From Denitrovibrio sp. (GTDB taxonomy: Bacteria; Chrysiogenota; Deferribacteres; Deferribacterales; Geovibrionaceae): a stretch of DNA of 64,000 nt. Each line of letters starts with the position of its first letter. Positions within the stretch are counted from its first letter, which is position 1. Of the stretch, positions 9,053 through 13,635 are shown piece after piece. The notes beneath the pieces were generated by a model. It had not been told where the DNA came from. It worked only from the letters and a program-made list of their open reading frames with translations, and made no database searches. A program made the position numbers and the translations under genes. Location: positions 386,236 through 450,235 of the forward strand of contig PKTM01000011.1 in assembly GCA_002869145.1 (NCBI GenBank), in the 5' to 3' direction.

Positions 9053-9506
9053 GGTTCGCAATGCAGTCTTTTCGTCACTTTTCGACCTTGTAAATGGCGC
9101 AAAAGTGCTGGATCTGTTCTGCGGCACAGGCGCATACGGCTTAGAGGCAATAAGCAGAGGTGCGGCGCACTGTACTTTTGTGGATATTAATACAGATCTG
9201 GTGAAAAAAAATACAATGCTGACAGGAGAGAAAACTTTCAGGATTGTTAAAGGGAAGGCTGAAGCTCTGCTGGAAAGGCTTAATGAAAGTTTTGACCTTA
9301 TATTTATTGACCCTCCATACGGAAAAGCAGAACCAATGGAACTGCTGCAGAAGATTGCAGAAAACGAACTGCTTGCAAATGATGGTGTTTTAATATATGA
9401 AGAAAGCATAAGAACCCAGTTTGAGTATCCTGTGGAAACCTTTGAGATAACAGGTGAAAAAAAATATGGGGAAACTAAAATCTACTATTTGTCGGTGAAA
9501 AAATGA
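8973..9506 (+). CDS. rsmD: 16S rRNA (guanine-966-N2)-methyltransferase RsmD
   Basis: RsmD methylates N2 of G966 in 16S rRNA during 30S assembly. The protein starts with KIVSGSLKNR and RPTTDKVRNAVF, the family N-terminus. Next come the SAM-binding LDLFCGTGAYGLEA and the catalytic FIDPPYGK (a D/N-PPY motif). Length is 177 residues. The start is GTG 8973 with GGAG about 7 bases before it; the family N-terminus confirms it. This makes an unusually long 80-base overlap with the preceding radical SAM gene. The stop overlaps the coaD start by 4 bases. The rsmD-coaD pairing is widely conserved. Confidence 0.95.
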   Translation: MKIVSGSLKNRQLATPKDLSVRPTTDKVRNAVFSSLFDLVNGAKVLDLFCGTGAYGLEAISRGAAHCTFVDINTDLVKKNTMLTGEKTFRIVKGKAEALLERLNESFDLIFIDPPYGKAEPMELLQKIAENELLANDGVLIYEESIRTQFEYPVETFEITGEKKYGETKIYYLSVKK

Positions 9507-9994
9507 TAGCACTTTACCCGGGGACATTCGACCCCCTTACAAACGGTCACATAGATATAGCCCTCAGAGGCGCAAAAATTTTTGATAAATTGATACTAGC
9601 AGTTTCAGAGAATCCGAAAAAGCAAACAGCTTTCAGTCTGGAAGAGCGGGTTGCAATGACAAAAGAGGCTCTTGCGGATCAAAAGAATATTGAAGTAGTT
9701 CAATTTAACTGTCTTCTGATCAAGTTTATGAAAAAAGTGAACGCAGATGTTGTAATAAGAGGGCTCAGAGCAGTTGGCGACTTTGAGTTTGAGTTTCAGC
9801 TCGCCCTTATGAACAGAAAGATGGATTCGGATTTTGAAACAGTCTTTCTTATGCCAAACAAAGAGTATATATTCCTCTCTTCCAGCATGGTGAGGGAAGT
9901 AGCCGCGCACTACGGAGACGTTTCACCTTTTGTGCCGGAATGTGTAAACCGGAGGATAGTGGAACGCTTCGGAAAACCTACTCCGTCCTGCTGA
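9503..9994 (+). CDS. coaD: Phosphopantetheine adenylyltransferase CoaD
   Basis: CoaD adenylates 4'-phosphopantetheine to dephospho-CoA, the penultimate step of coenzyme A synthesis. This nucleotidyltransferase has the T/HxGH signature in YPGTFDPLTNGHIDI, RGLRAVGDFEFE in the middle, and SSSMVREVA (the ISSTxVR-like motif) near the C-terminus. Length (163 residues) matches the family. Translation is coupled to rsmD through an ATGA overlap. The 138 bases after the stop are noncoding and carry the probable promoter of the next gene. Confidence 0.97.
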   Translation: MIALYPGTFDPLTNGHIDIALRGAKIFDKLILAVSENPKKQTAFSLEERVAMTKEALADQKNIEVVQFNCLLIKFMKKVNADVVIRGLRAVGDFEFEFQLALMNRKMDSDFETVFLMPNKEYIFLSSSMVREVAAHYGDVSPFVPECVNRRIVERFGKPTPSC

Positions 9995-10054: not shown

Positions 10055-10132
10055 GATAATATTATTTGTTAGGCGCAGTTTTATTTATGCAAGTGCGTCT
10101 GTTTGCTACCTTTTGTTTTATGAGGGGACTTC

Positions 10133-12577
10133 ATGAAAAAGAAAATATTGCTTATTGATGACAGTGTAACAATTCATAGGGTCATAGACCTTTGTGTAGA
10201 TAAGGAAAAACTCGATGTCTTCAAGGTCTTTTCAAGAGAAGAGGCCGTTATGAAGCTTAAATCTGAATCCCCCGACCTGGTACTTCTTGATAATAAACTT
10301 GCAAACATTAAAGCCAGTGAAATGGTGGCTGTTGTCCGTGAGCACTGCCCGGACTGCTGGGTAATACTCCTTGTAGGTGCTTTCGACCAGTTTGAAGCAG
10401 AACAGTGTGAGCAGGCTGGTGCTGACGATTTTATTTTCAAACCATTTGATTCAGAAGCTCTAGACGAGAAGATTGAGACTGGGCTTGTTTCTGAAAGGAC
10501 ACCTGTGGCTGCAAGTGCTCCAGAGATGGAAGACGGCGAAGAGGAAACAGAAGAACCAGAGCTTGAGATAGATGAAGCCGAGGAAGAAGTCTTAGATGAA
10601 GATGAGGCGGAAGCTTTGGCGGAAGAGGAACTTCAGGCGGACGATCTTGATGATATTCTTACTGAAGTAGAATCCGAAGAGATGGTTACTGATGACGAAA
10701 CCGAAGATGACGAAGTAGATATTCAAGAAACAGAGGAAACTGAGGCTGATGAAGAAGAGTCACAGCCTGATATAGAAGTAGACGATGAACCTTCGGATGA
10801 AGGTGAAGCAGAAGCTTTAGCAGAAGAGGAACTTCAGGCGGACGATCTTGATGACATACTTACTGAAGAAGAATCCGAAGAGATGGGTACTGATGACGAA
10901 ACCGAAGATGACGAAATAGATATTCAAGAAACAGAGGAAGCTGAGCCTGATGCAGAAGAGCCAGAGCCTGAGGTAGATGAAGCAGTACATGATCCTGAGA
11001 CTTCAGAAGAAGAGATTGACGAAAATGCGGCACTGCTTGAAAGCATGGGTGAGGATGATCCTGACGTTTCGCAAATAGACGGGCTGGACGATTTGGAGAT
11101 AGAGAGTTCTGATGAGATTATGAACGATGAAGAGCTGGAAGCACTCCTTGGGGCAAGCAGTCTAGACGAAGAAGAGATAGACATGTCTGAACAGGACGGC
11201 GAAACAGAAGATGGAGCTACAGATTCTGATATAGATGAACTTGAGATAGATGGGCTGATGGATGAAAGGGTGCTTCCTGAGCTACCCGAGCTTGACGAAG
11301 AGCCTAGCATGGCTGACGATGCGGCTGATCTTCTGGAAGAGCTTGCTGATGAACCAAAGGCGCAAGAAGAGGAAGCCAAAGCTGATGATGAACTTTATAA
11401 CTTCGAAGATGCAGATGATAGCGAAGTTTCAGAGGAAGAACTTCTGAGGGAGCTTGAGAACCAGCCGGAAGAGGAACCTTCAGCTGTTGAAGAAGAATCC
11501 ATAGAGGATCTTCTTGCTTCTGTGCAGGAGGAAGCGGAGGAAGAGGAACAGCCTGAGGTTTCAATTGATGAACCTGAGCTGGATGGCGAACAGATTTCTG
11601 AAAAAGAGGAAGATGTTTTTGAAGAAAAAGATGCTGACATAGATGCCACAGCACAAAGCCTGCTGGCTGAGCTAGATATAGATGGAGAACAACAGGACGA
11701 AGAGCCTGAATCTATAGATGAGACTGAAGTGCCTGAGTTAGAAAAAGAGCCCGCAGCAGAAGATGAATCTGCTGACAGCGATGACCTTTTTGCAGGGCTT
11801 GAAGAGTTTGATGAGGAATTGCTGGAAGGTGAAACCAAAAAAACTGAAGAGGCTGTCGATCAGGCTGAAAGTGTTGAGACTGATGAAGATGATGACGTGG
11901 AAGAGCTTGATGAAGATCTGGAAAGTATGTTGAAGGAAATCCCTACAGAGCCTGTTGTCGGTAAAAGCATAGACGAAATTCTTGCAGAGGAATCTGCCGA
12001 TGATGGGGAAGATGACCCTGAATTTGACGTTGATATTACAGAACATCCTGCTGCTGAAGATGATTCCGGGCAGAAAGAAGAGATAGAAGAACCTGAAGCG
12101 GATGAAGAGCCTGTTGATATGGATGACCCTTTCGCAGGGCTTGAAGAGTTCGACGAAGAAGAAGCTGATAAGGAGCCTGAGAAGGTTTCTCCCGAAGAGG
12201 ACGAAGATATCAGCATGCTCATTGAAGGCCCGCCCGAAGACGAGGACACTGACAAATTTGGCGAACTGCTTGACAGCATAAACGAAGAAGATTATGACGG
12301 CATTACCGATGATGACGATATAGATGGCGCTATAAAAGAGGCGGAAGATTGCCTTGACTGCGATGAGGACGATTTTGGTGATGAAAAATCCGAAGGCATC
12401 AGTGATGAATTGATAGCAAGTGCTGTGGAGGATTCCATCGATGATGATCTTCTGCGGGATACTGTTAAAGAAGTTCTTTCTGAAAAGATATCAGCAATAC
12501 TGAAACAGGAACTTCCTGCAATTTTAGAGAGAGCTATCAAGGCTGAGATAGAAAAACTTGTTAAAGGTGATAAATAA
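10133..12577 (+). CDS. Receiver-domain protein with giant acidic repeat region and PopZ-like C-terminus
   Basis: This 814-residue protein has three parts. Residues 3-118 form a CheY-like receiver with acidic pocket D9/D10, phosphorylatable D53 and K103 in FKPF. The switch Thr/Ser position is Val (V81). Residues about 125-750 are extremely rich in Glu and Asp and low in hydrophobics, apart from repeated short motifs such as ADDLDDIL, ELEALLG, IEDLLAS, and FAGLEEFDEE (near 550 and again near 665). This part is probably disordered. The last 60 residues are predicted helices ending VLSEKISAILKQELP then AILERAIKAEIEKLVK, which recalls the C-terminal oligomerisation helices of PopZ (DUF2497) and the tails of polar response regulators such as RomR. 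I infer a polar or scaffold role. The resemblance is by eye and the exact function is unknown. Confidence 0.8.
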   Translation: MKKKILLIDDSVTIHRVIDLCVDKEKLDVFKVFSREEAVMKLKSESPDLVLLDNKLANIKASEMVAVVREHCPDCWVILLVGAFDQFEAEQCEQAGADDFIFKPFDSEALDEKIETGLVSERTPVAASAPEMEDGEEETEEPELEIDEAEEEVLDEDEAEALAEEELQADDLDDILTEVESEEMVTDDETEDDEVDIQETEETEADEEESQPDIEVDDEPSDEGEAEALAEEELQADDLDDILTEEESEEMGTDDETEDDEIDIQETEEAEPDAEEPEPEVDEAVHDPETSEEEIDENAALLESMGEDDPDVSQIDGLDDLEIESSDEIMNDEELEALLGASSLDEEEIDMSEQDGETEDGATDSDIDELEIDGLMDERVLPELPELDEEPSMADDAADLLEELADEPKAQEEEAKADDELYNFEDADDSEVSEEELLRELENQPEEEPSAVEEESIEDLLASVQEEAEEEEQPEVSIDEPELDGEQISEKEEDVFEEKDADIDATAQSLLAELDIDGEQQDEEPESIDETEVPELEKEPAAEDESADSDDLFAGLEEFDEELLEGETKKTEEAVDQAESVETDEDDDVEELDEDLESMLKEIPTEPVVGKSIDEILAEESADDGEDDPEFDVDITEHPAAEDDSGQKEEIEEPEADEEPVDMDDPFAGLEEFDEEEADKEPEKVSPEEDEDISMLIEGPPEDEDTDKFGELLDSINEEDYDGITDDDDIDGAIKEAEDCLDCDEDDFGDEKSEGISDELIASAVEDSIDDDLLRDTVKEVLSEKISAILKQELPAILERAIKAEIEKLVKGDK
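10604..10949 (+). repeat. Tandem 201-bp in-frame repeat inside the acidic protein
   Basis: Two copies of a roughly 145-base segment start at 10604 and 10805, exactly 201 bases (67 codons) apart. Each encodes EAEALAEEELQADDLDDILT followed by ESEEM and TDDETEDDE. The nucleotide sequences are nearly identical, differing at a few third positions, so the duplication is recent or kept by recombination. It lengthens the acidic body without changing frame. Confidence 0.9.
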
Positions 12578-12603: not shown

Positions 12604-13635
12604 GTGTCAGAGGGACTGGATTATAAAGCGAGCGGAGTTGACATAGACGAGGGGAACAAGTTTGTTTCCGTCATTAAAAAAACAGTAGAATCAACTTATA
12701 ATAAAAAAGTTTTGGGAAGCATAGGCGGTTTCGCCGGCTTTTTTGATATAACAGAAGCAAAAGATATGGAACAGCCGGTTCTTGTTTCAGGCACGGATGG
12801 TGTTGGCACAAAACTGAAAGTTGCCATAGACTCAGGTATACTGAACACTGTAGGGATAGACCTTGTGGCTATGTGCGTGAATGACATTATAGTCACAGGA
12901 GCTAAGCCGCTCTTTTTTCTGGACTACATGGCTACAGGCAAACTGAGCAGTGAAAAGATGGCTCAGGTGGTAGAAGGTATAGCGGAAGGCTGCCGTCAGG
13001 CAGGCTCACCTCTTGTGGGTGGAGAGACCGCTGAGATGCCGGGCATGTATTCCGGTGAGGATTTTGACCTTGCGGGGTTTGCCGTTGGGATACTTTATAA
13101 ACCAAAGGCTATAACAGGCGAACGCATCTCCACAGGGGATTTACTGGTGGGGATTCCTTCCAGCGGCCTGCACAGCAACGGCTTTTCTCTGGCCAGAAAA
13201 CTGTTTTTCGAACAGCTTAAAATGAAACCTGACGATATCCTTTTTGACGATGTAATGCTTAAGCATGCGCTTCTCGCTCCCACACGCATATATGTGCCGC
13301 AAGTGCTGAAAGTTTTGAAAGAGGGTGTAGACATCAAAGGGATGGTGCATATCACAGGCGGCGGTTTTTACGATAATATTCCAAGAGTTTTACCGGAAGG
13401 TAAAGGAGTCAAAATAAATCCGGAGGCCTTTCCTACACCGGGACTTTATAAATTTATTCTGGAACGCTCGGGTATAAATGAGAAAGAGCTTTACCGTGTT
13501 TTCAATATGGGCATCGGCTACATTATGGTTATGGAGCATTCTCAGGCAGAGAAGGCGATGTCGCTTATAGATGATGCCTGTGTTATTGGCAGTGTTACTG
13601 ATTCCGGCGAAGTTGAGATTAAGGGGATAAATTGA
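12604..13635 (+). CDS. purM: Phosphoribosylformylglycinamidine cyclo-ligase PurM (AIR synthetase)
   Basis: PurM closes the imidazole ring of aminoimidazole ribotide, step 5 of purine synthesis, using ATP. The 343-residue protein has SGTDGVGTKLKVA, VNDIIVTGAKPLFFLDY, GGETAEMPGMY and HITGGGFYDNIPR, the family signatures. I take GTG 12604 as the start, with AAAGGAG 6 bases before it; an out-of-frame GTG is 2 bases upstream. The stop overlaps purN by 4 bases. Confidence 0.97.
   Translation: MSEGLDYKASGVDIDEGNKFVSVIKKTVESTYNKKVLGSIGGFAGFFDITEAKDMEQPVLVSGTDGVGTKLKVAIDSGILNTVGIDLVAMCVNDIIVTGAKPLFFLDYMATGKLSSEKMAQVVEGIAEGCRQAGSPLVGGETAEMPGMYSGEDFDLAGFAVGILYKPKAITGERISTGDLLVGIPSSGLHSNGFSLARKLFFEQLKMKPDDILFDDVMLKHALLAPTRIYVPQVLKVLKEGVDIKGMVHITGGGFYDNIPRVLPEGKGVKINPEAFPTPGLYKFILERSGINEKELYRVFNMGIGYIMVMEHSQAEKAMSLIDDACVIGSVTDSGEVEIKGIN

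Follow-up and report, generated by a model that had tools for sequence, protein, structure and literature searches.

The gene and its locus

The stretch of Denitrovibrio DNA analyzed here (64,000 nucleotides in full, hereafter the window) contains an open reading frame whose product joins a receiver domain to a long acidic body and a short helical tail, and the locus raises the question of what family this protein belongs to and whether it might organize the cell pole. The reading frame, at positions 10133 to 12577 of the forward strand, is real: it stays open from an ATG start over 814 codons, encodes a protein with a whole-protein pI of ~4.05, and follows a GAGGGG (10122 to 10127, forward strand), 5 nt 5' of the ATG, which, judged by eye only, is a plausible ribosome-binding site. 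Upstream lies coaD (9503 to 9994, forward strand), and 26 nt beyond the 3' end of the gene lies purM (12604 to 13635, forward strand). Neighboring genes were named from their translations, except for those that were searched for, and the order rnc, a radical-SAM gene, rsmD, coaD, the gene itself, purM, purN, and an M16 peptidase gene is common to all 12 genomes of the window's family.

The initial annotation had proposed a hub for cell-pole organization or chromosome segregation, having correctly placed the gene about 3 kb from dnaA, whose start is at ~15564, downstream of the gene. A scaffold function is still the best inference, but the idea of a role in chromosome segregation was dropped, as the two genes are not consistently close. 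In just two genera of the family, the window's own and one other, does dnaA adjoin the gene, following directly after the M16 peptidase gene, and elsewhere it lies from ~40 kb to 0.68 Mb away.

Receiver and linker

The three-part architecture described in the initial annotation was borne out. The receiver (residues 1-120; 10133 to 10492, forward strand) matches Pfam Response_reg (PF00072) over residues 5-114 with E = 1.8e-17, above the curated cut-off, and retains the acidic pair (D9 and D10), D53, and K103. Asp53 (10289 to 10291, forward strand) is the predicted phospho-acceptor and is Asp in 38 of 39 aligned orthologs, with Asn in one member of family f6 (the families of the phylum are designated f1 to f10). 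The position usually held by the Thr/Ser switch residue is occupied by Gly82, and by Gly in most of the phylum, so the response of the receiver to phosphorylation may be atypical. The protein shares its receiver fold and acceptor Asp with stand-alone receivers and adaptor response regulators of the CheY and CpdR type but differs from them in this Gly and in the addition of a long linker and a putative oligomerization tail. Within the genus, receivers are 84-85% identical and tails ~58-72%. A scan of genome contigs recovered a Denitrovibrio metagenome-assembled contig (L002) with a receiver 84% identical to that of the window, and its other matches were an OmpR-type and an NtrC-type regulator only, with similarity confined to the receiver.

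The linker (residues 121-750; 10493 to 12382, forward strand) comprises 630 residues, of which 47% are Asp or Glu and 3% Lys or Arg, giving a net charge of -281, and it is predicted to be disordered on the basis of this composition, which differs by family among the orthologs of the phylum. Within it lies an in-frame tandem duplication of 201 nt (10574 to 10975, forward strand), found by a repeat search, the two copies of which are 87% identical; this suggests that the linker has grown through slippage or duplication. Among 39 orthologs, the linker has a median length of 472 residues in genomes lacking the MglA/MglB/MglC GTPase module discussed below versus 270 in those that have it, and a Lys/Arg content of 3% versus 7%. 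Such a repeat-rich and lengthened linker, together with the eroded tails of two f6 members, is what might be seen if the gene were a decaying relic, drifting without function after loss of the module while its linker expanded neutrally by repeat slippage. We regard this as very improbable, given that a single copy is kept in 37 of 39 good-quality genomes, that the frames are open, that Asp53 is nearly invariant, and that receiver and tail are conserved within the genus to the degree given above.

Orthologs across the phylum and membership in the RomR family

Receivers at least 45-61% identical to that of the window, each followed by a long open frame, occur throughout f1-f5 and f7; those of f6 and f8 are less similar (27-38%). 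In all, 39 proteins complete at both ends were compared, and two more were seen in f10. Nearly all orthologs on an intact contig adjoin purM, including those of f8 and f10; in the latter, on the far side of the phylum, the purM neighbor is kept and the upstream gene is dGTPase-like instead. Of 51 Deferribacterota genomes, 46 contain a single match, and no more, to a profile built from 22 tails; among them are the 37 good-quality genomes mentioned above. One tail per genome, taken together with the purM locus, implies that the receiver-linker-tail architecture was probably present in the ancestor of the sampled phylum. No tail was found in f9. The two f6 members with eroded tails (L073 and L076, from genomes G033 and G030) have tails shortened through the conserved Pro region and are the only members without the spacing P-x3-E-x2-[IV]-x2-E.

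Previous work defined RomR by a receiver, an unstructured linker whose composition differs between taxa, and RomR-C, a Glu-rich helical module that has an invariant Trp and Pro and was described as unlike any characterized domain, and it had already reported RomR from Deferribacterales and plotted their linkers (Keilberg et al. 2012; PMC3441718). The motif published as invariant in RomR-C, "VIWEVVPELAEKLI" with its Trp and Pro, is found in the tails of four families, f2-f5, which read LEKVIWEVVPELAEKLIIEEIEKLKKG and variants and are of the W-E-x-x-P type. Since these orthologs at the purM locus carry the RomR-C motif and their genomes encode the GTPase module, the f2-f5 proteins are best identified as RomR and the window gene as their ortholog. 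Its tail aligns with the W-type tails of the sister families without gaps and at an hhalign probability of 99%, and retains the Pro (Pro795) but has Lys791 in place of the RomR-C Trp. The A2 tail profile, which was built with the window tail included, matches that tail with E = 1.4e-22.

Based on its locus, the published motif descriptions, and the 2012 report, the window gene is a RomR-family gene as far as sequence comparison can place it, and it follows that it can be considered neither distinct from RomR nor part of an undescribed system, as the initial annotation would have it. The features it has in common with RomR of Myxococcus xanthus and Bdellovibrio, which belongs to a RomR/RomX-MglA-MglB-MglC polarity module, localizes to the poles, and in complex with RomX acts as an MglA GEF, are the receiver, the long disordered linker, and the short helical Glu-rich C-terminal module. 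However, proteins of the window's family have another residue in place of the tail Trp and a longer linker with hardly any Lys or Arg, and their genomes lack MglA, MglB, and MglC. Because its tail lacks the Trp, we classify the protein as a divergent RomR-family ortholog rather than a canonical RomR.

The tail and its resemblance to PopZ

The C-terminal module (residues 751-814; 12383 to 12574, forward strand) is predicted by AlphaFold2 to form helices at residues 758-768 and 771-810, the second of which (12443 to 12562, forward strand) reaches a pLDDT of ~93-96 over its core. The initial annotation had likened this tail to PopZ, and several comparisons agree with it. The last 65 residues match PopZ/DUF2497 (PF10691) with E = 4.4e-5 and 24.3 bits, under the cut-off of 27, and the whole 814-residue protein gives a sub-threshold E = 0.006 and 17.4 bits; nonetheless, nothing else in the 2.88-Mb genome matches PF10691 at E <= 1e-3, and of 14 control genomes searched in this way only Caulobacter gave a match. 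When PopZ C-termini are aligned to the tails of the window's family by hhalign, the probability is 96%, gapless over 45 columns, and for the W-type tails of f2-f5 it is 87%, with one gap. When the columns of the PopZ profile were shuffled 200 times, the highest probabilities obtained were 8.6% and 7.9%, respectively, so that no shuffle attains the real score, and reversed profiles used as an hhalign control likewise fail. An unfiltered search of 1,094 open reading frames from these loci with a PopZ HMM made from five sequences places the orthologous tails at ranks 1-36, ahead of the first unrelated frame, with an f10 ortholog at rank 7.

The PopZ sequences came from plasmid records and from Caulobacter. 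The Caulobacter PopZ sequence used matches PDB 6XRY exactly over residues 1-133 and PF10691 with E = 3.2e-24; the tail compared here falls within the final 44 residues, which are supported only by that Pfam match and by tblastn matches to annotated and unannotated relatives.

The four conserved positions of the tail, namely Pro, Glu at P+4, Ile/Val at P+7, and Glu at P+10 (P795, E799, I802, and E805 in the window protein), coincide without gaps with PopZ P29, E33, V36, and E39 in alignment numbering, and tails and PopZ thus have the P-x3-E-x2-[IV]-x2-E spacing in common. It could be argued that the tail is a generic amphipathic or coiled-coil oligomerization helix that resembles PopZ by convergence, and that the protein is a soluble, non-polar multimeric receiver acting as a phosphate sink or adaptor. 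The matched segment is only ~45 residues, short enough for a helix to converge, AlphaFold2 gives one long helix, the Pfam score falls under its cut-off, and the tail profile finds no significant relative in the PDB (best E 0.22). We nevertheless consider convergence unlikely, as the four positions coincide gaplessly with PopZ invariants, the PopZ HMM places these tails, and no others, first, shuffling and reversal abolish the match, and experiments have shown RomR-C, the sister tail, to be an element that targets the pole (PMC3441718). In our judgment, RomR-C and the PopZ oligomerization domain are probably homologous. We found no paper tying the two together in a literature search whose reach excluded preprints and most subscription journals.

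The resemblance extends to the overall plan, as alphaproteobacterial PopZ, which condenses at poles and tethers ParB, likewise ends in a helical oligomerization domain preceded by an acidic disordered linker. The differences are nevertheless considerable: a receiver stands where PopZ has its N-terminal client-binding helix H1, the linker is far longer than the ~78-93 residues of PopZ, the EWLD motif is absent, the host belongs to a different phylum, and the window tail scores under the Pfam and far under the NCBIfam family cut-offs. In the course of these comparisons, an unannotated popZ was encountered beside valS in Sinorhizobium meliloti (L124; CP090106.1, 1853291-1856413), with its N- and C-terminal parts in different frames, a frameshift or sequencing error being likely.

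Absence of the GTPase module and co-variation with the tail Trp

MglA was found in 12 of 51 genomes, all belonging to f2-f5 and accounting for all 12 genomes there, with E = 1e-94 to 1e-128, and roadblock proteins were found in the same 12. The MglB of these families is ~160-180 aa long and encoded beside mglA, and most of the genomes also encode a second, shorter roadblock protein of ~120 aa, which by length and paralogy is the probable MglC. In one f5 genome (G015), a TPR protein whose C-terminal half is acidic (L106, 4220-5564) is encoded directly before the probable MglC in the same orientation and could partner the phylum's polarity module. In the 12 genomes of the window's family, no MglA or roadblock protein reached a credible score at E <= 1 (best E 0.02 and 0.08, with none over the roadblock cut-off). 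MglA, MglB, and MglC are all absent from this family and five others, most of which keep the receiver-linker-tail protein.

Every ortholog from a genome with the module has the tail Trp (11 of 11), and none from a genome lacking it does (0 of 28); these counts are genomes rather than independent events, and the twelfth Mgl-positive genome, being incomplete, did not yield its RomR gene. Either one gain, in the ancestor of f2-f5, or several losses could lie behind this pattern. In the purM tree, f2-f5 cluster with f8 (91/94), and the receiver tree lacks resolution, with 2-4 changes. Five RomR genomes of the 2012 survey lacked a complete MglA/MglB system, and these had lost either the receiver or RomR-C (PMC3441718), in contrast to the window's lineage, where both ends are kept.

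RomR normally co-occurs with MglA and MglB (PMC3441718), and PilT genes of the type IV pilus are kept in the window's family, with one to four in f1-f5. Both observations would fit an ordinary RomR, still acting on an MglA-like GTPase that governs type IV pili, whose divergent partners profile searches have missed. We consider this rather improbable because searches that detect MglA so strongly in sister families yield no credible candidate in any genome of the window's family, because the RomR-C Trp is gone from every genome without the module, and because f7 retains the protein despite having lost both the module and PilT. In f7 genomes (e.g., G040 and G042), a search for PilT-family proteins gives nothing at E <= 1e-60, so retention there can be attributed neither to MglA nor to type IV pili, and type IV pilus polarity was rejected as the conserved role.

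A proposed GTPase-independent scaffold

The reading that we prefer, and consider reasonably probable, is that the window gene encodes a RomR-family scaffold, most likely polar, that acts as a GTPase-independent hub and self-assembles via its tail. Previous work on M. xanthus has demonstrated that RomR-C is required and sufficient for oligomerization, binds MglC, and is needed for polar localization (PMC10329633), and that RomR gathers at the poles cooperatively even without MglA and MglB (PMC7332107). For PopZ, the helical oligomerization domain provides attraction and the acidic disordered linker repulsion, and together they set condensate fluidity (PMC9512792). By analogy with both, the window protein would be expected to self-assemble by its tail, to stay fluid through its linker, and to present its receivers as regulated client sites. 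The C-terminal helix (residues 771-810) would self-associate into oligomers, and the long, strongly negative linker would act as a soluble spacer, maintaining the fluidity of the assembly and perhaps providing motifs to which clients bind. The receiver would be a regulatory or client-recruiting head, presumably tuned via phosphorylation of Asp53, and the assembly would most likely concentrate at one or both cell poles. Such a scaffold would work with neither the Ras-like GTPase MglA nor its GAP MglB nor the adaptor MglC, and would constitute a GTPase-independent polar hub with a working principle nearer to that of PopZ than that of Myxococcus RomR is.

As judged from its architecture, its orthology by locus, its tail signature, the absence of MglA, MglB, and MglC, and the co-variation of the tail Trp, the window protein is a lineage-specific RomR-family variant uncoupled from the module and bearing a PopZ-like, putative self-assembly tail. 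What is new here is the retention of RomR without the module and the likely link between RomR-C and the PopZ oligomerization domain. A phylum that keeps a RomR-type scaffold after loss of MglA, MglB, and MglC and, in one family, of type IV pili as well, amounts to a natural experiment, and the persistence of the protein suggests a scaffold function independent of the GTPase.

A more far-reaching interpretation, which we put forward tentatively, is that RomR-C is by homology the PopZ oligomerization module and that the window's family and other Deferribacterota possess a RomR-type protein freed from its Ras-like GTPase and forming a phospho-controlled, PopZ-like polar condensate. The RomR-C Trp, whose loss or gain coincides exactly with that of MglA, MglB, and MglC, would then be part of the contact with the module rather than of self-assembly. 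If this were true, the polar hubs of Myxococcus and Bdellovibrio and that of Caulobacter would share one self-assembly tail, which would link two separately studied systems and explain why both self-assemble at the poles. The co-variation of the Trp points to one tail residue as a likely contact with the polarity module, a prediction that is testable at the level of single residues.

A link to the polar flagellum via FlhF was also considered and rejected, as FlhF-type matches occur in nearly all genomes and provide no discrimination. Outside the window, the best FlhF match in the same genome (G000:C10:224091-224936) and that in a congener (G019:C11:365288-366136) each contain one in-frame stop codon, TGA in the former and TAA in the latter, which suggests that flhF is broken or misassembled in this genus.
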